DNA of 64,000 bases from Ectocarpus siliculosus (Eukaryota > Sar > Phaeophyceae > Ectocarpales > Ectocarpaceae). A program made the position numbers and the translations under genes. Positions 6,606-64,000 of the stretch are shown here, piece after piece. How positions within the stretch are numbered: position 1 is the stretch's first letter; each line of letters opens with the position of its first letter. Location of the stretch: NCBI GenBank assembly GCA_000310025.1, contig FN649743.1, positions 3,333,903-3,397,902 on the forward strand. The letters run 5' to 3'. The notes under the pieces were generated by a model. The model did not search any database, had not been told where the DNA came from, and saw only the letters and a program-made list of their open reading frames with translations.

Positions 6606-6960
6606 AACATCTACGCTCGAACCAAGGCGAAACTTCTGTTCAAAATGGATGATGGTTCGATCGAGGTTATTCTTTCACAGCACGGAGTTCAACAAGGCTG
6701 TAATTCGGGAGGGTTCGGCTTCTGTGTAGGACTCCTTGATATCATGAAAGAGTTCAACAACAAGCCACCAGTGCCAGGAGTCAAACTCATCGGATACGTC
6801 GACGACCTCCAAGCGCATCTTCCACCTGGTTTGGCTAGGAACATGCGCAGGCCATATCCACTGTAACGAATTGGATTCAGGAACGTCTCTCCCAAAAAGG
6901 GATTGAGCTCAGTCTCCCGAAATCCAAAGTGCTTTTCCTGGAAGGAATAAGACTGCCATA
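6606..6960 (+). mobile_element. Non-LTR (LINE) retrotransposon reverse transcriptase fragment, frameshifted
   Basis: The translation contains HGVQQGCNSGGFGFCVGL followed by GVKLIGYVDDLQAHLPPG, the LINE-type RT GVxQGCPLGP-like motif and the YxDD catalytic box (here YVDD). A frameshift near 6840 moves the continuation (AISTVTNWIQERLSQKG, then SLPKSKVL) into another frame, ending at the TAG at 6958. The N-terminal RT, endonuclease and 3' end are absent. The left side begins just after an A/CA-rich stretch. The right side abuts gypsy sequence at about 6961. It is a dead fragment. The RT assignment rests on motifs; I did not assign a clade. Confidence 0.8.
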
Positions 6961-9300
6961 GTGCCACCACGACCACGAACGGACTGGTGTCCGTTTACGC
7001 TTTCAACCTCGAGACATTCGACCGGAGTCGATACGTCGTCTTGCGTAATATGGCAGGGAGGAGATTTGTTCGCATAAGAGTCCAGCATGTCCGGGGTAAG
7101 ACCAGCAGGCAGAACTCTCGGCAGGCCATCGGTGTCATGCGGGCTAGCCCAAGGCTTGTAACGCACAACTGACACACGAAGGTTCCAGTCTTGGCCCGGC
7201 AGGTCCGACGGGAGATCCAAGTAGAGCAACTTGGACGCCACAAACGACCATAGGGGCGTCAGAATACAGGCCCACAGCCAAAGCTGTGAACGGGCCAGTC
7301 CAGAGAAAAGACAACTTGGCTTAAAGAACCGCGTCACCCGTACCTGGACGAACACCTTGCTTGGCGGATAGTGGATTCGGAGTTGTACACCAAAACCCAC
7401 CCACCTACGGTAGAAAAGGGAAGCTTACGTAAAGCAACCGAAAGAGCGGAATTTCGCCGCTCGATCCTCGCAACGGTTGTGCTTCTCACACGCCAACTCG
7501 TACGAACGGTGTTGGCGATCAGCAGCAAGATCGTATTACTTGAGTTGATCACGATTCAAGCCTTGGTGGTCGCGAGCATAGGGATGCTCAAGGACAGTCA
7601 TCGGCAAACGCGGCAATTGGTTCATGGGCACCTCGTTGGGCGCTAAACGAGTAGCTGCAAATTAGTGCCCAACCATCTTGTCTCTCGCTGACGACCACCG
7701 CTAACGAACATTGGAAGCGTAGAGCGGAGTTGACGCGAATCGTGCAGGCACGAAGCCGCCCGAAGACGCTGGTGCGTGGAATGGGTTAACTTTCTATACC
7801 GCGTTATGGAGAGATGACGTCGGAACGTGATCGGCAGAAGACAGCAAACGAGAGCTGCACTCGGGAGGCGGGGCACTTTTTTCGTAAAAGACTGCGTACT
7901 CGTTGGAGGGCGCTGCCCAACAAATATTGGCCGCGCCATCGAGATGTAGATCGAGCGTCGGGATCATTGGCCGGAAGGCCAATGCCCCAAATACGGTCAA
8001 CGGGACTGGTTTCGGCAAGGATTTTGTGACCAGGTTCGAGAAGATTATCTCGTAACTCGGAGGTTTGACTAGATTTCGCGTAAGGGCCAGTGAGCACAAT
8101 GTTTTTGCGCTCTCGTTCCCAAATAGATTGGTCGAAACCACGGACGTCGCCGCCGAACTTCTTGTGCAAGACAGGGTCGGATACTCGCATGATGTTCTGC
8201 AAAGCTCTGTGGTCTTCAAAACGACGAGCTTTCTCCGCAGCAAAAACTGCTCAGCACACAATTAAACAACTCTATCGGCCACAATAGGCGACCGTGTTTA
8301 TTGGGAAAACTGAGAAGGGGGTTTCCTACAGAAAATCATGTCTGGAATACAATACTCTATAGACGGGTCGAAAGAAGCCAGAGCTGCAGGGGCCGGAGCG
8401 GCCTACGTGCCGTCAGCCGAAGCTGGGGTGCAGCCGAAGCTGTGGTGGGCAAAACGCCCATGTTTCCATTGACGGTATGAATACGCGTGGGAAACGTCCC
8501 AGCGATGGCGGGGACTGGTGAAGAATCGACCGGGTATGGATTTTCCGCAATAATTGGGCCAGCAACGCGGGGCTGGGAGCGTCCCAATTCTAGACCTGAA
8601 ACGACGCCTCATGAGGGGTCTTGCAACAGGCCGCTTTTTCGCTGGGAACGAATGCCGACGCCAAGTCGGTTAATGGACTGGACTGCGCGTGGTGCTCCTG
8701 GCCATTCCCCCGTGACAAGGTACGCGAGACCGCCGGCTGTTCGGAGGTCACTCTGGAAGCGTCCTCGGAGCGGTGGTGTCGACCCTGTCGGTGGTTTCAA
8801 CCCTGTCGATGCCGGTCACGGCTGCCCAATATCACGCCCCTTGAGGTGAGCGTACGTCGGAAGAGATGGGGCTTGGAAAGACGACCCATGGTCGAAATGT
8901 CGTGTAGCGGAATCTGATTTTGTTCGGTTGTCGAAACCAGCGGGACAAGGCGATTCAAATCCAAGCGACTTTGACCCTAAAAGTTGCCGGTCGGAACCAG
9001 TCAAGTTAGCTATCGGCGCTACGGTCGACGACCGACCCTCAACGGAAGCAAGCACAGACAAAGTGAGGGCGTCCGAGGATTCACCCGAAGTAACCAATTC
9101 AGGCACTACCTCATCAATCGTCCAAAGCGTATGGCTACGGCCGGTCTTATCTGCAGACGACGGGGGGAGCGAACGAGGGGTACCCGACAAGCGAGCGGCA
9201 CTCGATGGCCCCGAAGGTCCTACGGTTCGTTCCCGCACCTCAAGACAGCACTCTCATCAGACTGGTTAGGTTCGGACGGAGCATCAGCCCGAAGAGGCTA
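6961..9300 (-). mobile_element. Internally deleted Ty3/gypsy copy, related to the element at 57.7-64 kb
   Basis: Read on the minus strand, 9300-8340 is 5' sequence of the element. 8330-7770 encodes a decayed NADAR domain (SPVDRIWGIGL and SRWRGQYLLG are clear), and 7640-6961 matches the integrase C-terminus and start of the third frame (VNGHQSVRGRGG). The block 6961-7646 aligns with 58303-58985 and 7766-8330 aligns with about 63440-63990. The missing part is protease, RT, RNase H and most of integrase, about 4 kb, with the junction near 7646. Frames carry stops and shifts. The 5' limit near 9300 is uncertain and no LTR was identified. The region 8340-9300 is the only view in this window of sequence upstream of the NADAR domain. 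Confidence 0.8.
7770..8330 (-). pseudogene. Decayed NADAR-domain frame of the deleted gypsy copy
   Basis: The minus strand gives CAEQF at about 8250. After a shift it gives NIMRVSDPVLHKKFGG, VRGFDQSIWERERKNIVL, KILAETSPVDRIWGIGL and RWRGQYLLGSALQRVR, the NADAR/YbiA core in order. It keeps the Glu of the AEQ motif and the IWGIGL glycine that the intact copy has lost (IWVIGL). Stops and at least one frameshift make it nonfunctional. It serves as an independent copy showing that the domain belongs to the element. Confidence 0.75.
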
Positions 9301-37221: not shown

Positions 37222-37666
37222 GTAAGATCGGATGCCGGCTTCCTCGGCTCGCCGCCGGTCCGAAGGCGGTCGCCCGGGAAGATTGGGGAAAACTGGGCCG
37301 AAAAGGGTGTTTCCCTGCCTTTTGGAACTGCAATAGTCTACAGTAGCTAGGCGTCATTCCCTGCAAATGTGTTTCCTCTTTGTCCATGTGACTATGCCGG
37401 AAAGTTTACCAGAATAGACAATCCAGGGCAGACAGTACCAGACGCGGCACGACCCGGGGGTCTCCCGTGCTCGCCAGGGGTGTGTCGCATGAAAACATGG
37501 GTTTCTCTGTGTCGTACAGATTGAGATCCCCCCCCGCAGCATGAGGTGTTTGGCACCTTCGTTTGAAGCATGTTGCTACTTGCTGCTACCGCGACACGCG
37601 TCGCAGCGGTTCACATCGCCCGAGGCACCACACAAACAAAGCTCCAACATTTGATTCACCTGAACC

Positions 37667-38557
37667 ATGCGGCACTTCGTAAGAACAATCGATCATCCGT
37701 CCCACATTGTTATGGAAAGTTACGGTGGTATGGGGAACGGGATTTCTGCATGGAAAGCCCTGAAGGAGCGGTTCGACGGCAACACCAAACAAGCCAGGCG
37801 TGTTGCACGGGAAGAGCTCTTCCGGAGCACAATGGACGAACACGTCGACCCGGAGGACTTCTTCGCGAAAACCGACCGCCTGCGCCACCGTCTCGAAGAA
37901 AAGGGGCAGGATATCTCTGATGAAGTGTACGAGTCCTCGCTTCTATACGCCCTGCCGGAGAAATTCGCGTTCATCAGACACCGACACTACGAGGATGACT
38001 CTCTCGATATCGATTCGCTGAAAAAGACCGCCATCACCTATAACATAGACATGAATGTAACGCCTAATATTTCAGGGTGCGGAATGGCAATGGGGGTGTC
38101 TGACGCAGGAACGGGCTCTTGCTGCAAGGCGTGCGGACACTGCAAGACCGACGGAAACCAAACCAACAAAAAGGAGTGGAAGAAAGGCAAGACAGGCAGT
38201 GGTGGCGGACAGCCCAAGTGGTGCTCATACCACAACACCACTACACACGGTGACAATGAATGCCAAAAGCAAAATGAGCTAAAAGGGTGGGCTGCAAACC
38301 TGGCGCTGCTTCAATCTGCTGGCCACCGAAACGTCTCCAACGTCGGGAGCGCCCACGTAGCGCAATCTCACGGACCGCAGGCTTCCATCAACTTTGGAAG
38401 CGCCCACCTGGCCCAGCATCAGGGACCCGAGCCATCCACGTTCGGATTCTCTTTCAACGCTATAAGGGAGACCCTGCCTGAGACTTCGGCGAACGCGACA
38501 CCTTCAATGGCCCAGAAGGACTCTCATCTCCCTGACGGGTTGTTTGGCGCGTCTTGA
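37667..38557 (+). CDS. Copia-type Gag with zinc knuckle
   Basis: A 296-residue frame. Residues ~29-130 (SAWKALKERFDGNTKQARRV to KKTAITYNIDM) are the copia Gag region (UBN2 type). WCSYHNTTTHGDNEC at ~190 is a CCHC-like knuckle, and the tail carries two similar GSAHxAQ phrases. Gag forms the particle that packages the RNA. The N-terminus is displaced: matching sequence (TQTKLQHLIHL) continues upstream in another frame from 37570, so a frameshift near 37660 is likely. Confidence 0.8.
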   Translation: MRHFVRTIDHPSHIVMESYGGMGNGISAWKALKERFDGNTKQARRVAREELFRSTMDEHVDPEDFFAKTDRLRHRLEEKGQDISDEVYESSLLYALPEKFAFIRHRHYEDDSLDIDSLKKTAITYNIDMNVTPNISGCGMAMGVSDAGTGSCCKACGHCKTDGNQTNKKEWKKGKTGSGGGQPKWCSYHNTTTHGDNECQKQNELKGWAANLALLQSAGHRNVSNVGSAHVAQSHGPQASINFGSAHLAQHQGPEPSTFGFSFNAIRETLPETSANATPSMAQKDSHLPDGLFGAS

Positions 38558-54834: not shown

Positions 54835-55685
54835 CTAGGGGGCACGCACACAGGACAGTCCCAAACGTTTGAAAAATACCTGGTATGTTATAGTACGAAA
54901 AAAAAAAGAGGCGACGGCGATGAAACCGAGGGCCCGGGGAGGATGTGCCGCTTCAAGCGTGGGAGGCTTGGAAATGCTTGCATGGGCCACGGTCAATAGA
55001 AGAACACCAGGGATCAGGCACAAACAAGCTCAAGCAGAGTGGCACCGCTCTCGTCGGCAATATCTTACACAAAATGAAGCTTGAAACAGATTTGCGGACA
55101 GCTCTTCATCAAGCAGGCACGGAGGAATTTAAATCCGTTGCAGTTGGGCAAGGGTCCTAAGGGACAGATATAGCAGTTATTGTACACAAGACCAGATTCC
55201 TCCTCTTCTTGAGTACCAACCCTCCCAATAATTTATTGTTGTTCCTTTGTCTCGTCTGTTTCTTCCCGCTTTGAGACAGTGAAAGTACAACACAAGACCG
55301 CAACGCCGACTGGAGCACCGGTTTTGGGTCAATGACTGTTGTTACAGATCACGAGGGTAAAGCGGGGGCTGCCACGGGTCGATTTACCTCGGCTCGCATA
55401 TCACAACCGGAACCTTTCGCGCGAGTCGAACAACCTAAACTACCAGGCGAATTGCGACGTTACACCCGTGGTTGTCCGCGTGGTTGAATTTGGGTGCTAT
55501 CAACCCGACGTGAAAAGAGCAGGGGCGGCGATGACCCGCCTTAAACGACGAAAAGGTTGGGCAGCACGCGGACTCATTTCCCATCCTCCAGGGTTGTGGT
55601 CGCGGTAGACAAGATTCCCACAAACCACACGCGCCGAACCTCACAGACGCGTTTTTTATTTTTTCTGTTGCGGTGGCCGTGGCAG

Positions 55686-55832
55686 ATGTCGAAGGTCAAC
55701 GAGTTGCGGCGATGGTACCCGGGCCTGAACATTGAGGTCGACGGGGGGCTCGCGGACAAGACGATCGAGGAAGCGGCAAGAGCTGGGGCCAACCTCATCG
55801 TGTGTGGCAGTTACATCTTCAAGAGGGACAGG
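55686..55832 (+). CDS. RPE: Ribulose-phosphate 3-epimerase, single penultimate exon
   Basis: Between a GTGGCAG acceptor and an AGG|GTAATG donor, 49 codons in phase 0 read [20 protein letters not shown] then [20 protein letters not shown]. This is the C-terminal (beta/alpha)8-barrel part of ribulose-5-phosphate 3-epimerase, including the phosphate-binding DGG loop and the GAN-IV-GS loop. The enzyme interconverts ribulose 5-phosphate and xylulose 5-phosphate in the pentose phosphate and Calvin cycles. I could not find the upstream exons (substrate and metal site, GFGGQ loop) in the preceding 2 kb. A short terminal exon near 55923 is possible but ends quickly. It may be part of a long-intron gene or a stray exon copy. 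Confidence 0.65.
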
Positions 55833-57736
55833 GTAATGTGGGCGCGCGGTCGTTTTGGAGGGAGACTGCGATCAGGGAGGAGTTGTGGATGCGGCTAGAC
55901 CAACACCCCTCTGCGTTGCAGTGCCATGCAACTAGGGGAGAGGGTAGTTTACCTTGAGGGGATGGACGATCGTGCGCGATGGCTGCAGCTTCCAGGGGAC
56001 CCGAAGCGTGGTAGTGCTGATGTGGCGAAGAGTGGAAGAATCTCATCGTTTGACGTCACTGACATGTTATTGGCCACGATTGTCTGTTCAAACATGCTTT
56101 CTCTTGGGCAAGGGCTCGACCGACACCAGTTTGTTTCACTTTTTTGCCCGAAATATTCTTCTTAGCAATCTTGGCCAAGATTTCGGACGTCGAGGAGGCG
56201 GACCTTTATTTTTTTTGTCAATTTCTGGCCTAGTGGTTCATTTCTGTTGGAAATCGATTAAATCATGGCGGGCGTTGAAAGGCCAGAAGGCCGAGTAGGC
56301 TCCCGGGAACCGTGCAGTCTACGGAGCAAGTCATCGTGAAATGCGAGCCGTGGCTCTCTTGTTAGTGTCAACCGAACCTAGTTGGTCGGTGTGAACACTA
56401 CGAGTGCTCGCCGCGGAGGTAATTGACGCTATCGCGCGCGGTGAAAATAATGGTTTAGTCGCAGCTTCTGTATTCGTCTACCATACCGAGCAACAGTCGA
56501 TTCTCGGGTCGAAGTGAACAACGACCGTAAACACCTTGTACTCGGTAGCTAGATCAGAGCCGACCTTTCAGGCTTTCAGCTTCATTCACTCGCCGGCTCC
56601 GTGTGGATGAATGAAGGCATCATGTTGTGGGATTACACGCGTAGCGGTCCCTGAAGACCCTGATGAAGACTCACTTGTTTATTAATCTCTTGGAACAGCA
56701 GTGCTTGCTGTTGCTTTGCTCTCAAAGGTAGACTGAGCACAGAGGGGAGGACATGCTCCCTCTAAAAGGGGTCACAAAGGTCCTGTCCCCTGTTTTATCC
56801 TTCCATCGGGAATTACATCTCCCGCACTTTCCTCTGGGAATTACCCCGCCATACCGTTGGCACTGGCTACATTCAAATCCCAAAACACTAGCCCACCCTG
56901 GAGGTTCTCATACGCAGATACTTGAAACCTAGGAACTTGACAAATAATTGTCGAATCCCAAAAAATGAAAGGATCGAGGATGTGGAGCTCCAAAATACCA
57001 AGAATCACCCTCCCACACCTCTCACACGATGAGTCGCAAGACCATCGTTTGACCCAAGCAAAAAGAACGAAAGAGAAGGGAAAGACGGGGCTAAGAATGA
57101 AACAGGGGGACAATAGACACGATCATAGAAAAAGTCAACGCTACAAATACCATAACAGGTCGGAACCCAAAGAAAGGAAGAAAATGCTGGAAAAGCACCG
57201 TCGGAACGGCGAAAACCAACCTTATCGACAAAACGATACAAAACACGAAACAGTCGGTGTCGCTCAACGACTAAAAGCGACGAAAATACGCACGGCTAGC
57301 CCGTATAAGCTAACTAATCACAAAGAAAACCTAATGACGCCATAGGGTGACGTACGCAAAAAGGTAAGAAACCAATCGTTTCGACAGCGAAAACCAGGGG
57401 GCCATGACCCAACATAAGGTCCGTCGAAATCAAACCGCCGCGGGGAGCCGAAAATAAAGCTCAACCATGCGAACGGCGAAAGAAGCAGAAAGGCAAAAAG
57501 GACTCGAAAGACAAGACGACGTACCAGGCGGAAACAAACCGATCGCCAGAATGACGAGAAAAAAGGGGTCGAAATACCAAAACGAGGCCTAACACTGCGC
57601 TATCCAGAGGCAACAACAGCCTACACTCACTTGCAAATGAGAGGACCGGACGAGATCAGGGGCGACCTCGAGTCCGCATCCCATCTAGGATAGAACACAC
57701 ACGTCACACAGGTAGATCCCAAGACACACACGCTTG
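55833..57736. other. No recognisable gene; may include the gypsy 3' LTR
   Basis: The stretch 56950-57720 is A-rich on the plus strand and lies just past the 3' end of the minus-strand gypsy element, where its 3' LTR is expected. Without the 5' LTR in the window its limits cannot be set. Confidence 0.35.
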
Positions 57737-58354
57737 CTAATCGGTGCGTGCCGGATCAGTTGGCGGCGAATTCTCCACCTCCACGTTTCGCGACATGTCG
57801 ACATTGCGAAGAAGTCCTTTCATGAGGGCGCTACCGCTGTGGACTTGAAGGCACCACGAACCGCAGACGGCCGATCCGAGGGTAGAGTAACGAACAACGG
57901 AGAGGGCGATCTTGACCGGTCCGGGGTCGTCGAGGAAGCTTACGATGTAGTGGTCAGCCCGTTCAGTCGGTCCAGAAATCTTGCCCAGCCACCAGAGTCC
58001 ATCTTGAGCCTTGTACCAGAAGAACGCACCCACAGGTAGAGGAGTATCGGCGAAACGACGGTCCCAGGTTGAGCGGGAGACAAAGGAGTAACCCGGAGGC
58101 AAATATCTCTCGCCCTTAGCACGTGCCAATTCGCGTGCGGCTGCGCCAATACGCATTGCACGGTATCGGCGATTCGTCTGACGGTGTTGATCGGGCGTAC
58201 CCGTCCAATACCGGAGAATCTGCGATCGAGAGTGCTGAAGGTCCATCTCACGCTCCCAAGAAGGGCGGAGAAGACCCTTCCAATGTGTCTGATACAGAAC
58301 TGCGATAACACCACCACGACCGCGAACAGACTGGTGACCAGTAATTTGTTCCAC
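57737..58354 (-). CDS. Third frame of the gypsy element, Tudor/SH3-like domain
   Basis: About 205 residues in a frame different from pol, overlapping nothing but pol's last codons. The N-terminal phrase GHQSVRGRGG is shared with the deleted copy near 7000. Residues ~105-165 (VGAFFWYKAQDGLWWLGKIS, then YIVSFLDDPGPVKIALSVVR) look like a Tudor/SH3-type barrel, as in chromatin-reading or integrase C-terminal domains. It might target integration or be the displaced integrase tail. No signal peptide or membrane segment argues against an envelope. Confidence 0.5.
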   Translation of the reverse strand: MEQITGHQSVRGRGGVIAVLYQTHWKGLLRPSWEREMDLQHSRSQILRYWTGTPDQHRQTNRRYRAMRIGAAARELARAKGERYLPPGYSFVSRSTWDRRFADTPLPVGAFFWYKAQDGLWWLGKISGPTERADHYIVSFLDDPGPVKIALSVVRYSTLGSAVCGSWCLQVHSGSALMKGLLRNVDMSRNVEVENSPPTDPARTD

Positions 58355-58382
58355 CTCGAGGCGTTCGACCGAAGTCGAGACG

Positions 58383-61300
58383 TCATTTTCCGTAACATGA
58401 TACGGAGGAGATTTGGTCGTAGTTGTTTAAAACATACTGCGTCGGCAGAAACCGTGGCAGGTCCTCAGCGTCATGCGGATTAGCGCATGGCTTGCAGCGT
58501 GCGACCGAAACACGACGTTTCGAGTCTTTGCCCGGCAGGTCCGACGGAAGATCCAAGTATAATAACTTGGCCGCGAGAGGACTGCCATCAGGGGCTTTCG
58601 AACAGGGGCCTACAGCCAACACTTTAAACGGACCGGCCCAAAGCAATGATAACTTCGCTTTGAGAACCTTGTCGTCGGTACCTGATCGAACACCGGAGCG
58701 AATGGTAGATTCGGTATTATAGATCCAAACCCAATCGCCGATGGTGTAAGTCGGAAGCTTGTGCAAAGCATCCGAGAGAGCGGAATTTCGACGCTCGATC
58801 CGAGAAATGGATAACTTGTGCTGCTCGCGTACTAGCTCGTAAGCACGACGTTGGCGATCAGCAGCGAGGTCGCAATATTGGAGATGGTCGCGATCCAAAC
58901 TTTGATGACCACGAGCATAAGGATGCTCGATGACAGTCATCGGAAGGCGAGGCAAACGGTTGATATGCACCCCATTAGGTGCTAAACCGGTGGCCGCGCT
59001 AACAGAGTTATTATAGGCAAACTCTACATGAGAGAGATGGACATCCCAATCATCTTGCCGTTCGTTAACGACCATGGCAAGCATTTGTGCCATAGTATGG
59101 TTAACACGCTCGACACCACCATTTCCATTAGGATGGTACGAACTGGTGGCCACTTTGCGAACTGCGAGACGTTTGTAAACGGCTTGTGACAGTTTCGAGC
59201 AAAATTCTGTGCCATTGTCTAATAAAAGACTCAAAGGGCAACCCCACAGAATGATATACCGATTCACTAAAATATCTGCAGTACCTTCAGCGGTAAACTC
59301 AGCAGCCGTAACGGCGTACATGTCAGCACGCCGACTAAACCGGTCGGTTAAAAGCAGAATGTAAGTGTTACCCCTAGGGGTAGTCGGCAGTGAGCCGAAA
59401 TAATCGACACTCACGGACACTCCAGGTCCGGATGGCAGTGGCAAGCTTAAAATGGGCCACCTGGCCGTTTGTCGGGAAGTTTTACGAGCTTGGCACTTGA
59501 GGCAATGGCGAATCCACCATTTGGTACAGACGCTCATGCCTACCCACCAGTAGAAACGCTCTAACATAGACAGCGTACGAGCTGCACCAAGATGACAAGA
59601 CGCATTAGCGTGACAGATCTGCATGATCCATGGGCGCATCAACATGGGGACGTAAACTCTAATAGGTTCGTCGTTGAGGAAACGTGCCGCACGCCCGCCA
59701 TGGCGCGTGGAAGTGGCAGAAGCGGTTGTGGTGGGCTTCTTAACGAGAAGCACTACGTCATCGTCGTCAACGTGCAACCGGCCTTTATGTGCCAGTTCAC
59801 GGATGTCCGAAAACGAAGGTCGACGGTGTGACGGAAGGTGGTCAAGAAAACCAGGCGGTAATTCGGGAGGTTGACCTAGAAGGATGTAGCGTATGGCGGC
59901 ATCGCACACGGGTTCACCGCGTTGTTCTCGCCCCCAATCAGAATGGGAAAAACGCTCAACCGATTCGCGGAAATCGAGCTCCACGCCCGAAAGCACTGGG
60001 GTATCAACAGCCGGCGGAACACGTACCGAACCAAGCAAAGGTCCAGACGCGGGCGTCGGCGGTGTCGGGTCTGGGCGAACGGCCATCTCCGGAATTGGAC
60101 TCAGTGGCGCAGAAGCGGCGGAATCCACCGGCCGGGGAGCCGAAGATTGATGAACGCGAAGCGCACGAGCTACAGACTGAGGAACAGTCGGCTCGAGAAG
60201 CGAGTCCTCCGGCTGGGAAAAGCCATAGTCCACAGCCGGGCGCGGAGTACCGGCGGCAGCAGCAGCGCGCCGACGGGTTCGTGTTGAAATGAGATCGGTA
60301 GGATCCAGGGCGCGCCTGGATGAAGCACCAGGGCGTGTAGCGGGCGTTTCTGACGCATCTTGTACGGAAAAAACACCAGCAGCAGTCGAAACTGCAGAAC
60401 GACCCGAGGCGACCAAGGGAGGGCGGTTGCGAGCGGTTGTAGAGCCCGAAGCACCGATAACAGTCGGGGTTAAACCTCGAACAGACCAAACGCCCGAGGG
60501 AAGGTCAGAATGAGCGACAGTAGCGCGCGGTCCGTGCTCGCGAAAATCAGCAAAATCAGCTGAAGAAGGCGGTAGCCCACCCAAGACTGAACTCGGGGCG
60601 GACGGCACGATCCCACCCAGGCCAACACCGGGTTGATGGCCAGAAGGCACAAACCCACAAGAGCGGATAAAATAAACCGTTTCATCTTCAGCCGACGGAG
60701 TCAAACGACTGCGGCCAGAACGGTCACGCTCGGTAGCTTCTATCGGTAGTCGAGAAAGGAAGTCAGCATTGCCGTTGGACGAACCCTTGCGATACTCGAG
60801 AGTGTAGGAGTATGCTGTCAGGAACTCCAACCAACGTTGAACGCGAGCGTTCTTTTCCCCCACCTTTGCAAGGTGTTCAAGGGACTTGTGATCCGTGAAA
60901 ATCTTGAAGTGGGTGCCCCATAGGTAACCGCGAAGGCGCTTGATGCACCAAATGATACTGCCAGCTTCAAGATCCAGAGGAGTCCAATGACGCTCAGATT
61001 CCAAAGTAGCTCGGCTAACAAAAACGATAGGCCGAATAGAGCCATCAGGTTGTTCTTGTTCCAAAGTTCCACCAAACCCATCTTTACTCGCGTCACAGTA
61101 GAGGCGAAAAGGGCGCGAACCGTCGGATACAGCATCCCAATCTGGATACACCAAAACTGGAGGGTTCGCCAGTTCTTCGAGAAGTTGGCGAACGACGGAT
61201 TCCATTGAACCCGTGAACTCAAACTTCACATTCTTTTTAAGAAGCGTCGTAAGAGGGCGAATACGCTTAGCCATCTGTGGAAGAAACTTCCGGTAATAAC

Positions 61301-61832
61301 CCAAACCACCCAGCAAAGCTCGAAGCTGCTTGGTGTCTTTGGGCATCGGCATCGTGGTGAGAGCAACAACTTTTTCACCATTGGGCCGAACTCCGTCCAG
61401 AGATATAGTGTGCCCAAGAAACTCGGCTTCCGTGGCGCCAATAGTGGCTTTCGGAGGAGTCAGTTTCAAATTGTGCTCGCGCAATCTTTCGAAAAGAGAG
61501 CGAATGGTCGCTACATGAGCGGCCGGGGTCTCATCAAAGACAATGAGGTCGTCCAGATACGACGCAACACCTCGAAGATTTTTGATGACTTCGTTGACGA
61601 CCTTACAGAACCATCCGGGAGCAGCGGCACTGCCCTGAGGCATTTTCAACCACTCAAACAGCCCAGAAGACGTAACAAACGCCGTGAGGGGAATGGTATC
61701 ACGATGAACCGTGATCTGATGGAACGAAGATTTCATGTCAAAGAGAGAATAAATCTTCCCCTTCAACAATTTGTCCAGAGTATCATCAACTCTAGGAATC
61801 GGAAGCTGACTAAGAGCACATAGTTTATTCAA
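58383..61832 (-). CDS. Gypsy Pol: reverse transcriptase, RNase H, integrase
   Basis: 1149 residues downstream of a TAG. RT: LPIPRVDDTLDKLLKGKIYS, FVTSSGLFEWLKMPQGSAAA, catalytic ASYLDDLIVF, FLGHTISLDGVRPN. RNase H: RLYCDASKDGFGGTL, KIFTDHKSLEHLAK, GNADFLSRLP. A linker of about 330 residues rich in Ser, Pro and Ala follows (362 to ~690). Integrase: HANASCHLG with CLKCQARK (HHCC zinc domain), catalytic D in SVDYFG, D in LLLDNGTEF and E in GGVERVN with 35 residues between the last two. The C-terminus runs into FKVLAVGPCSK and LPSDLPGKDSK, conserved in the deleted copy. All catalytic residues are present. The true start is upstream in the protease frame; the RT N-terminus (KSGGVRITVNYRKL) lies between the TAG and this frame's first Met. 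Confidence 0.9.
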   Translation of the reverse strand: MNKLCALSQLPIPRVDDTLDKLLKGKIYSLFDMKSSFHQITVHRDTIPLTAFVTSSGLFEWLKMPQGSAAAPGWFCKVVNEVIKNLRGVASYLDDLIVFDETPAAHVATIRSLFERLREHNLKLTPPKATIGATEAEFLGHTISLDGVRPNGEKVVALTTMPMPKDTKQLRALLGGLGYYRKFLPQMAKRIRPLTTLLKKNVKFEFTGSMESVVRQLLEELANPPVLVYPDWDAVSDGSRPFRLYCDASKDGFGGTLEQEQPDGSIRPIVFVSRATLESERHWTPLDLEAGSIIWCIKRLRGYLWGTHFKIFTDHKSLEHLAKVGEKNARVQRWLEFLTAYSYTLEYRKGSSNGNADFLSRLPIEATERDRSGRSRLTPSAEDETVYFIRSCGFVPSGHQPGVGLGGIVPSAPSSVLGGLPPSSADFADFREHGPRATVAHSDLPSGVWSVRGLTPTVIGASGSTTARNRPPLVASGRSAVSTAAGVFSVQDASETPATRPGASSRRALDPTDLISTRTRRRAAAAAGTPRPAVDYGFSQPEDSLLEPTVPQSVARALRVHQSSAPRPVDSAASAPLSPIPEMAVRPDPTPPTPASGPLLGSVRVPPAVDTPVLSGVELDFRESVERFSHSDWGREQRGEPVCDAAIRYILLGQPPELPPGFLDHLPSHRRPSFSDIRELAHKGRLHVDDDDVVLLVKKPTTTASATSTRHGGRAARFLNDEPIRVYVPMLMRPWIMQICHANASCHLGAARTLSMLERFYWWVGMSVCTKWWIRHCLKCQARKTSRQTARWPILSLPLPSGPGVSVSVDYFGSLPTTPRGNTYILLLTDRFSRRADMYAVTAAEFTAEGTADILVNRYIILWGCPLSLLLDNGTEFCSKLSQAVYKRLAVRKVATSSYHPNGNGGVERVNHTMAQMLAMVVNERQDDWDVHLSHVEFAYNNSVSAATGLAPNGVHINRLPRLPMTVIEHPYARGHQSLDRDHLQYCDLAADRQRRAYELVREQHKLSISRIERRNSALSDALHKLPTYTIGDWVWIYNTESTIRSGVRSGTDDKVLKAKLSLLWAGPFKVLAVGPCSKAPDGSPLAAKLLYLDLPSDLPGKDSKRRVSVARCKPCANPHDAEDLPRFLPTQYVLNNYDQISSVSCYGK

Positions 61833-61871
61833 CTTACGATAGTTTACGGTGATGCGAACACCACCGGATTT

Positions 61872-63218
61872 CTAGGGTATAACAACCAAAGGACTCGAGT
61901 ACGGTGACGTCGAGTGTTGTATAAGACCCGCAGCAAGATATTGGTCGAGAATAGCGTCCACTTGCTTCGAAACCGGAGCACTAACTCGGTACGGACGAGA
62001 TGTAACGGGCTCACTGCCGGAGGGAACGGTCAACTTGAACGGGACCAAAGAACAAGAACCGAAATCCGTAGGCGAACTGGAAAACACGTCGTGATATTCA
62101 TATAGCACCTTACCCAATTCGGTAATAACGTCCGGTGTCCAACCAGGACCATGTAAATTAAACGTGATTTCTCGCAAGTGACGGGGGAGCTTATCCCACA
62201 CACGAGAGAAACTGGCACGTTGATCTGGTGCTAAACGCGCCAAAAGAGCCGGGGAAGGCGAAAGAGGAGTCAAATCAGAAGGATTCGAACCAGGCGCCGG
62301 ATGCGGAGGTTTGGCGGTCCGTTCATGCAGATCATACACAAACGAATGAGCCGGCGGTGACGCTGTCGAACCGGAGCAAACGTAGTTAAAAACGGGGCCA
62401 GGGTCCGTATGGGCAGATTGCGAGGTGTCCGAAACGGGAGTGGGTGAAACGACGGTGGCCGGAAGACCAGCTCCGTCGGTATCACAAGGAAACGCACCAA
62501 GAGGAACCTTGAGAAGGGGCGCTGAAGCGGTACCCAAAACATCACCCGGTTCCAAACTCGAAACTCCCGCTAACGGCACACGTTGGCGACCATGAGTAAC
62601 AAAATGTTCTTCTGAAGAAAACATGGACGTTTGAGCAAACATATCTACCAGATAATTGCCTACACGGGCAGGAGACCCATCACTGCGAACTAAATCAACT
62701 GGAACCAGTTGGTGTTCAGGCAGTAATTGAATGGGATGTCGGCCAGCATATCTAAGCTGGAAACTACCCTCACGAGCAGTGACGTCATGCACAAAAGCTT
62801 CAGCACCACCGTGCTTATGGTGGGCTGAAGTCAGTTCCCCGAAAACGCGATCATTGGGGCGTCTTGTGGGCAAGGCACGGTAGGAACGGTCGCTAAAACG
62901 CATCCAACTATCCCTGCCGAGCAACACATCATGTTGCATAACACCGTCAGGCACAACATACGCCCAAACGGCAAGAGAAGCGGTCGCGAATTTTCGCCGA
63001 AGAAACTGCACGCTTAAACGGACCATGGTCGACGTTTGAAGGGGGGCGGACTCACCAAACCCTCCCCAACAACGAGGTTGGGTGCGTGGTTCAAACAACG
63101 ACGAAGCTGCACCCGCGGCTTTCATGGACTCCCAAGTTCGAGAACTAACGAAAGTCTGGGGTGAACCGGTGTCCAGCAACGCCACACGCATCCAAATTGC
63201 GTAGAAGCCGAGCCACAA
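61872..63218 (-). CDS. Gypsy aspartic protease and start of RT, ended by TAG
   Basis: 448 residues. Protease: VALLDTGSPQTFVSS (catalytic DTG) and HDVLLGRDSW, the flap-side and second conserved element of retropepsins. A spacer follows, then the RT entry SRPYRVSAPVSKQVDAILDQ with YSSPLVVIP. The next codon is TAG (61874-61872), after which the same frame continues as KSGGVRITVNYRKL into Pol. The stop therefore lies inside the RT fingers, where gypsy proteins normally read VVxVPKKDG-like sequence, so a nonsense mutation is the simplest reading. The frame is -1 relative to the NADAR frame, which it overlaps by about 97 bases. Confidence 0.85.
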   Translation of the reverse strand: MWLGFYAIWMRVALLDTGSPQTFVSSRTWESMKAAGAASSLFEPRTQPRCWGGFGESAPLQTSTMVRLSVQFLRRKFATASLAVWAYVVPDGVMQHDVLLGRDSWMRFSDRSYRALPTRRPNDRVFGELTSAHHKHGGAEAFVHDVTAREGSFQLRYAGRHPIQLLPEHQLVPVDLVRSDGSPARVGNYLVDMFAQTSMFSSEEHFVTHGRQRVPLAGVSSLEPGDVLGTASAPLLKVPLGAFPCDTDGAGLPATVVSPTPVSDTSQSAHTDPGPVFNYVCSGSTASPPAHSFVYDLHERTAKPPHPAPGSNPSDLTPLSPSPALLARLAPDQRASFSRVWDKLPRHLREITFNLHGPGWTPDVITELGKVLYEYHDVFSSSPTDFGSCSLVPFKLTVPSGSEPVTSRPYRVSAPVSKQVDAILDQYLAAGLIQHSTSPYSSPLVVIP

Positions 63219-64000
63219 TGGGTGAGGATTCGTGCAGTGAAAGAGTCATCGTCAACGGTGATTACACTGCCGACTAAACTAGGACCTTGCTCAGGAAGCA
63301 AAGGCGACTGAGGACCAGGATGGTCAGTGTCCCGAGACACAGCCCAAACGCTGTTGTCATGATCGGACGGGACACTAGTGGCGTATTGCGAAAAGGACGC
63401 AAAACGCTCCGAAGACGACGGCACAGGTGCCGTCGACAGCCGTTGATGCGTGGAAGGATTAACTCCGAACACGGTACAACGATCTGGGCTGGGCGTTTTA
63501 CCCAAAGCCGCTAAGCGAGAACTACGTTCTGGCTGTGGGGCGTTTGATCGTAAAAGTTGGCGAACGTTCTGTAAAGCTACACCCAACAAATTTAGACCAC
63601 GCCAACGAGAAGGACGACAAGCGTCCGGATGATCTGCACGAAGACCGATTACCCAAATGCAGTCATAAGGACTGGCTTCTGCTAAAAGTTTGTCTCCGGA
63701 TCCAAGGAGGTGTAGTCTCATCTCTGGATTTTGGGAAAATTTAGCGTAAGAGCCGGTCAGCACGATATTTTCGCGCTCCTTCTCCCAGAGAGTTTGGTCG
63801 AAACCCTGGACCGCACGACCATACTTCTTGTGTAGATCGGGGTCGGAAACTCTCATGATGTTCTGTAGACATTCGCGGTCGCCAAAAAGGCGAGCTTCCT
63901 CTGCAGCAAAAAATTGCTCTGCACACACATACGAAGTACCATCAGCGACAAAAGTAGATGGGGTCCATTGACAGAAGGGAGAAGGGGATTTCCAAAATAG
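63122..64000 (-). CDS. NADAR-domain (YbiA/DUF1768) frame of the gypsy element
   Basis: Open from the window edge. The domain spans 64000 to about 63550: SPFCQWTPSTFVADGTSY, CAEQFFAAEEARLFGD (the family's catalytic-site E in the EH/EQ motif), KKYGRAVQGFDQTLWEKE, YAKFSQNPEMRLHLLGSGDK, LAEASPYDCIWVIGL and SRWRGLNLLGVALQNVR. NADAR proteins are N-glycosidases: bacterial YbiA cleaves unstable riboflavin-pathway intermediates, and relatives remove ADP-ribose from nucleobases. A Ser/Pro-rich linker leads to VGSVITVDDDSFTARILT, where the protease frame takes over, and the frame ends at 63122. One glycine of the usual WGIG motif is Val here. Activity is inferred from family only; placement in the Gag-Pol precursor is seen directly. 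Confidence 0.85.
   Translation of the reverse strand, partial: LFWKSPSPFCQWTPSTFVADGTSYVCAEQFFAAEEARLFGDRECLQNIMRVSDPDLHKKYGRAVQGFDQTLWEKERENIVLTGSYAKFSQNPEMRLHLLGSGDKLLAEASPYDCIWVIGLRADHPDACRPSRWRGLNLLGVALQNVRQLLRSNAPQPERSSRLAALGKTPSPDRCTVFGVNPSTHQRLSTAPVPSSSERFASFSQYATSVPSDHDNSVWAVSRDTDHPGPQSPLLPEQGPSLVGSVITVDDDSFTARILTHCGSASTQFGCVWRCWTPVHPRLSLVLELGSP

Follow-up and report, generated by a model that had tools for sequence, protein, structure and literature searches.

A NADAR domain maintained in a lineage of Ty3/gypsy retrotransposons of Ectocarpus siliculosus

Why would a retrotransposon carry the domain of an N-glycosidase? The question is raised by a 64,000-nucleotide stretch of the genome of the brown alga Ectocarpus siliculosus (contig FN649743.1, positions 3,333,903 to 3,397,902), which we call the window. 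Close to its end, on the minus strand, lies a Ty3/gypsy element whose frames encode a NADAR (YbiA-type) domain ahead of the retropepsin. A first-pass annotation had claimed the domain, its place upstream of the protease and the Ty3/gypsy assignment, and had suggested that the element might be undoing ADP-ribosylation. The observation is confirmed and this first interpretation is partly supported.

The same annotation knew of no standard gypsy family with this layout. One had in fact been reported: a NADAR-gypsy fusion was described in Ectocarpus sp. 7 in 2025 (PMC12477816). According to that paper, NADAR is strongly conserved among the families that make up one of four lineages, and Gypsy-12_Ec32 is a NADAR gypsy element with a putative C-terminal chromodomain; its authors suggest, giving no mechanism, that the domain acts in processing of the RNA intermediate. 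Among the papers listed by a full-text literature search on NADAR/YbiA and retroelements, it was the sole one on the fusion, judged by titles and abstract openings. The words 'stop codon', 'readthrough', 'frameshift', 'catalytic' and 'active site' are absent from its main text. To the published fusion we add a measure of constraint, a count of kept active-site positions and the readthrough layout.

Is the domain a genuine NADAR? In a Pfam search the window's copy scores 141.6 bits against the PF08719 profile, whose curated cut-off is 35.1, and structure prediction with a PDB match gives the NADAR/YbiA fold. The retroelement NADAR is 32% identical to that of Phytophthora nicotianae (PDB 8bau), an enzyme that hydrolyses guanine-ADP-ribose (PMC11543638). 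The Phytophthora enzyme is described as not linked with DarT, and the passages available mention no retroelement. The same work describes the roles of nine residues of the ADP-ribose pocket or catalytic site. We mapped these from the alignment, inferring a shift of 2 in the numbering (family = Phytophthora): E28=E43, K35=K50, K58=K75, R62=R79, W72=W89, R76=R93, E108=E125, D113=D130 and W116=W133. Among the 109 genomic copies that we read, 97 keep all nine, and each position taken singly is kept in 105-108; catalytic E28 is present in 108, K35 in 106 and the YbiA-type second glutamate, E108, in 107. Across the seven multi-copy families all nine positions are identical, compared with 65 of 150 columns overall (hypergeometric 4e-4). 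Treating two broken single copies as further groups lowers the number of identical positions to 5 of 9, because K58-R76 differ in these two, apparently out of frame. K58, F67 and R76 resemble the Phytophthora ADP-ribose-binding enzyme (K, Y, R); the equivalents in the aligned Escherichia coli YbiA are A, P and K.

Does the domain belong to the lineage, or only to one copy? We searched the genome (189 Mb, 492 contigs) with the NADAR profile and scored the best 150 of 230 candidates, all of which exceed the curated cut-off. The 109 of these 150 that were read form groups of 28, 26, 19, 19, 7 (the window's family), 6 and 2, plus the two single broken copies. A search with the window's reverse transcriptase (RT)-RNase H sequence approaches the matter from the other side. 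Among the best 112 of 641 candidates, 99 have a same-strand NADAR no more than 9 kb upstream, and in 96 of these pairs the distance between NADAR and RT is 1.38-1.88 kb. Six of the 13 unpaired matches were inspected: an apparently frameshifted NADAR stands at the expected place in three, and no NADAR lies within the 601 bases fetched in the other three. One of the remaining seven is at a contig edge. The domain is shared, then, by most of the best-matching copies.

Selection appears to have kept it there. Between families (up to 8 copies from each of 7 groups) the mean proportion of synonymous differences, pS, is 0.55-0.89, near saturation, and that of nonsynonymous differences, pN, is 0.15-0.35. 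Inside six families pN/pS ranges from 0.21 to 0.64. For the ratio of nonsynonymous to synonymous rates (dN/dS) we relied mainly on L026, a copy of the window's family, and L014; the values are rough because dS is near saturation. The ratio is 0.061 for NADAR, 0.069 for the protease (PR) and 0.040 for RT-RNase H (RH), with 0.11 for the C-terminal extension and 0.51, 0.14 and 0.13 for the N-terminal, NADAR-PR and RH-integrase (IN) linkers; for PR-RT and IN no value was computable. In the comparisons with L010 and L011 amino-acid identity alone is usable. It is, respectively, 0.68 and 0.58 for NADAR, 0.54 and 0.52 for PR, 0.68 and 0.62 for RT-RH, 0.81 and 0.68 for IN, and 0.27-0.51 for the linkers. 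NADAR seems to be conserved to roughly the same degree as the protease, and its dN/dS is lower than that of the linkers. Given its presence across the family and the constraint between families, we reject chance capture by one copy.

How is the domain expressed? In this lineage Pol runs linker-NADAR-PR-RT-RNase H-IN-C-terminal extension. An upstream frame with a CCHC knuckle, which we call Gag, is found in 11 of 21 long loci; a Pfam scan of three upstream frames gave no match. In the related copies the Gag frame ends at one UGA followed by C, and Pol goes on in the same frame. This junction was located in 18 of the 21 loci, from four families, and reads UGA-C in all 18, as found with sequence contexts from previously read junctions, which other forms would escape. 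It is in frame with NADAR in 16 loci, with no additional stop in 14. The first methionine of Pol falls at residue 14, 32, 221 or 381 in four families, which favours readthrough over a separate start. Judged from these sequences, stop-codon readthrough at UGA-C is likely. Since Pol lies in frame with Gag after a single UGA-C, NADAR would probably be produced as Gag-Pol and packaged. The fission-yeast Ty3/gypsy elements Tj1 and Tosmo share the one-frame Gag-UGA-C-Pol arrangement, with a UGA-CT readthrough site; the available part of their description does not mention NADAR (PMC10085805).

What might the enzyme do in the particle? We assign a probability of about one half to the reading that it is a particle-borne YbiA-type N-glycosidase that would remove ADP-ribose adducts. 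Readthrough of the UGA would yield NADAR solely within Gag-Pol and in low amount; it would enter the virus-like particle together with reverse transcriptase, where the neighbouring protease might set it free. Most likely it would strip ADP-ribose from the element's RNA or complementary DNA (cDNA), or from small molecules that spoil reverse transcription. It could then be seen as a house-cleaning enzyme at the site where betaretroviruses carry dUTPase. NADAR and dUTPase are unrelated in fold and chemistry, and the analogy is one of placement only. The betaretroviral dUTPase is a house-keeping enzyme N-terminal of Pro, as NADAR stands before the protease (PMC1224870). The NADARs of eukaryotic RNA viruses have been argued to target mainly host macromolecular ADP-ribosylation (PMC9503650). 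The annotation's phrase about undoing ADP-ribosylation survives as a live reading, given that the family retains its pocket and catalytic residues; any particular substrate is a proposal.

Several facts weigh against this answer. Conserved residues do not name the substrate: for a NADAR, activity on guanine-ADP-ribose in vitro does not imply protection of cells (PMC11125620). E. coli YbiA has a different known substrate, riboflavin intermediates. In the passages available, loss of hydrolysis on mutation is documented only for the equivalents of E28, K35 and E108, and the role of K75 is given in two ways (both PMC11543638). D86, a ribose contact in the Phytophthora guanine-ADP-ribose hydrolase, is not conserved in the retroelement NADAR, where the equivalent column, Q69, is variable. 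Exon-by-exon searches of the Ectocarpus genome, which may miss genes, found no match to DarT and none to Tpt1/KptA. They gave four short PARP matches above cut-off and one short Macro match, which suggests ordinary host ADP-ribosylation and names no substrate.

A further proposal is that the packaged enzyme de-ADP-ribosylates nucleic acid and so reverses a host defence, unknown so far, that ADP-ribosylates guanines in retroelement RNA or cDNA. We offer it tentatively and consider it rather doubtful. If true, it would be the eukaryotic parallel to what phage NADARs have been proposed to do against base-modifying toxins of bacteria. In DarT1-NADAR toxin-antitoxin systems a linked DarT is expected; the exon-by-exon search of the genome found no DarT, and Pfam scans of the element's frames revealed no ART domain. 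More generally, an extra enzyme carried by a retroelement tells what limits the element in the cell. A NADAR under protease-like constraint, ahead of the protease and after a likely readthrough stop, suggests that these gypsy elements encounter ribosyl or ADP-ribosyl adducts so often that an enzyme is needed, and it poses a testable question: does nucleic-acid ADP-ribosylation restrain mobile elements in stramenopiles?

Could the substrate instead be soluble? NADAR might act, ahead of reverse transcription or apart from it, on NAD-derived signals of the host or on damaged metabolites, for example intermediates of the riboflavin pathway. YbiA-type NADARs do remove riboflavin intermediates (PMC11543638), one section of PMC9503650 proposes soluble ADP-ribose derivatives as preferred viral targets, and a kept active site suits this explanation too. 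Yet placement within Gag-Pol fits a particle-bound job better, K58, F67 and R76 are unlike E. coli YbiA, and macromolecular targets are the ones favoured for eukaryotic RNA viruses (PMC9503650). A soluble substrate is possible, at odds we would put well short of even.

Less likely still is a non-catalytic use of the fold, in which NADAR would serve Gag-Pol by binding RNA or as a structural module. Precedents can be named: nematode SNA-3 NADARs have a role linked to small nuclear ribonucleoproteins, their chemistry being unknown (PMC9303266), and some animal RNA viruses keep NADAR in a polyprotein with the polymerase (PMC9503650). Mutation of catalytic residues impairs SNA-3 function, although the authors of that study caution that the mutations may disturb folding (PMC9303266), and a non-catalytic module is hard to square with nine mapped positions kept in nearly nine-tenths of the copies and in every multi-copy family. 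That NADAR is a functionless passenger, captured once, is scarcely credible: the window copy has lost the essential lysine and three of the six inspected unpaired RT matches lack the domain nearby, but pN stays low between families whose pS nears saturation, and the dN/dS of NADAR resembles that of PR.

Where did the domain come from? A protein search with a 1440-residue N-terminal Pol piece, scored on NADAR, returned 18 proteins, nine of which also contain RT. The closest named ones are from Ectocarpus sp. CCAP 1310/34 (with RT, P0122, P0123, P0127 and P0128); the others with RT are P0124, P0131, P0132, P0133 and P0129, the last an EukProt gene model that also contains Copia-type domains. A search with the window NADAR alone gave 1398 matches; the best 120 are mostly metagenomic entries of 160-210 residues, and their organism names are bacterial except for Ectocarpus. 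Against a phage collection, tblastn of the window NADAR returned 670 records, all below 60% identity, and named no donor. One copy, L079 (G000:C1:545184-545627), is 98.6% identical over 148 residues to the ENA protein P0021, whose assembly may derive from E. siliculosus or a very near species.

A first NADAR tree, built from 27 retro and 56 other sequences (83 rows), does not place the retro NADARs in one group (3 changes). A reduced tree of 40 rows (20 and 20) does, with support of 86/91, which is not decisive. For the latter P0098, first classed as other, was counted as retro on account of the similarity between its N-terminal part and the flank of P0006, and 8 retro and 35 other rows were left out, among them the long P0035, P0113 and P0139 and the animal or long-branched P0125, P0126 and P0135-P0138. 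Separate trees for RT and for NADAR, each with 17 rows, recover the same close family groups and disagree at depth: P0129 and P0133 join families B and E in the RT tree (80/84) and families A, C and D in the NADAR tree (87/89). In these trees a long branch leads to the broken copy L029. The simplest reading of the sequences would be one NADAR capture from a bacterium-like source.

Two animal cases may be set beside these. The limpet (Patella) proteins P0125 and P0126 have NADARs 43-45% identical to the retro NADAR, with no RT domain listed for either; by eye, P0125 has several NADAR-like repeats. The Tx1 LINE of Crassostrea gigas also carries a NADAR; this is a non-LTR element, and its NADAR, in ORF1, is divergent (PMC12477816).

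Features of the window element, with the Gag-Pol junctions of related copies (positions in the window unless stated)
Feature	Position	Strand	Remarks
NADAR (YbiA-type) domain	63548..63997	minus	residues 2-151 of P0001; Pfam, residue reading, model and PDB match
NADAR-protease linker	63122..63547	minus	stop closes NADAR frame here
Retropepsin (aspartic protease)	62840..63180 (limits approximate)	minus	LLDTGSP motif, D at 63171-63173; open reading frame 61872-63245
TAG in frame, interrupting RT	61872..61874	minus	window copy
Reverse transcriptase (RVT_1), part	61404..61865	minus	Pfam E 9.3e-25
RNase H (RT_RNaseH)	60810..61118	minus	Pfam E 4.2e-32
Integrase zinc-binding domain H2C2	59478..59651	minus	Pfam E 2e-12
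Integrase core (rve)	59130..59426	minus	Pfam E 8.1e-7, 29.7 bits, slightly below curated cut-off 32.6
Possible chromodomain, Pol C-terminal extension	58205..58357	minus	weak: E 0.0091, 16.3 bits vs cut-off 25.1
3' long terminal repeat (LTR), 265 bp	56623..56887	minus	TG...CA
5' LTR, 266 bp	genome C18:3398658-3398923 (L009 1757-2022)		TG...CA; past window end
4-bp target duplication TGAT	56619-56622		adjoining 3' LTR
Gag-UGA-C-Pol loci	L010-L021 and L023-L028		directly upstream of Pol

The window contains the whole element except its 5' end, for which we fetched 9,999 bases overlapping the window end by 1 kb. The Pol order PR-RT-RH-IN is that of Ty3/gypsy elements, as had been claimed, with PR recognised by its motif only; a Pfam scan of the element's frames gave no protease match. 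LTRs, a target duplication and a putative primer-binding site, the TGG-starting TGGCGTCGTC directly after the 5' LTR, agree with the assignment. Between the two LTRs there are 5 substitutions and a single 1-base indel. The possible chromodomain is in a different frame from the integrase, and its match falls below the cut-off; that of Gypsy-12_Ec32 is itself called putative.

This copy is damaged in at least four ways. After the 5' LTR it lacks Gag and the beginning of Pol, which L026 has. RT is interrupted by an in-frame TAG at 61872-61874. A frameshift separates the NADAR and protease frames, which fail to meet (63122/63245), since the NADAR frame hits a stop within the linker. The frame also changes in the C-terminal part of Pol near 58400. 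The window NADAR retains E28, K58, R62, W72, R76, E108, D113 and W116, and has glutamate at position 35 in place of the lysine that is essential in a characterised NADAR (K95 in E. coli C7, corresponding to K50 in Phytophthora; PMC11543638). The other six copies read of its family have this lysine. The window copy is decayed and probably inactive. Such decay of a single copy is normal for a multi-copy element, and the lineage retains NADAR. A second decayed NADAR copy (7804-8250, minus; genome C18:3341784-3342149), followed at 6909-7424 by an apparent Pol C-terminal remnant, looks like a relative from the same lineage that has suffered an internal deletion.

The surroundings hold a few other recognisable frames. 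Past the window end, at L009 2882-3436 (minus), a frame that adjoins a masked stretch has a tail resembling, by motif, the catalytic region of a tyrosine recombinase. Near the element's 3' end, at 55545-55898 (plus), a peptide resembles by eye an exon of ribulose-phosphate 3-epimerase and is probably part of a host gene. A frame at 37664-38557 (plus) resembles, again by eye, a Copia-type Gag.
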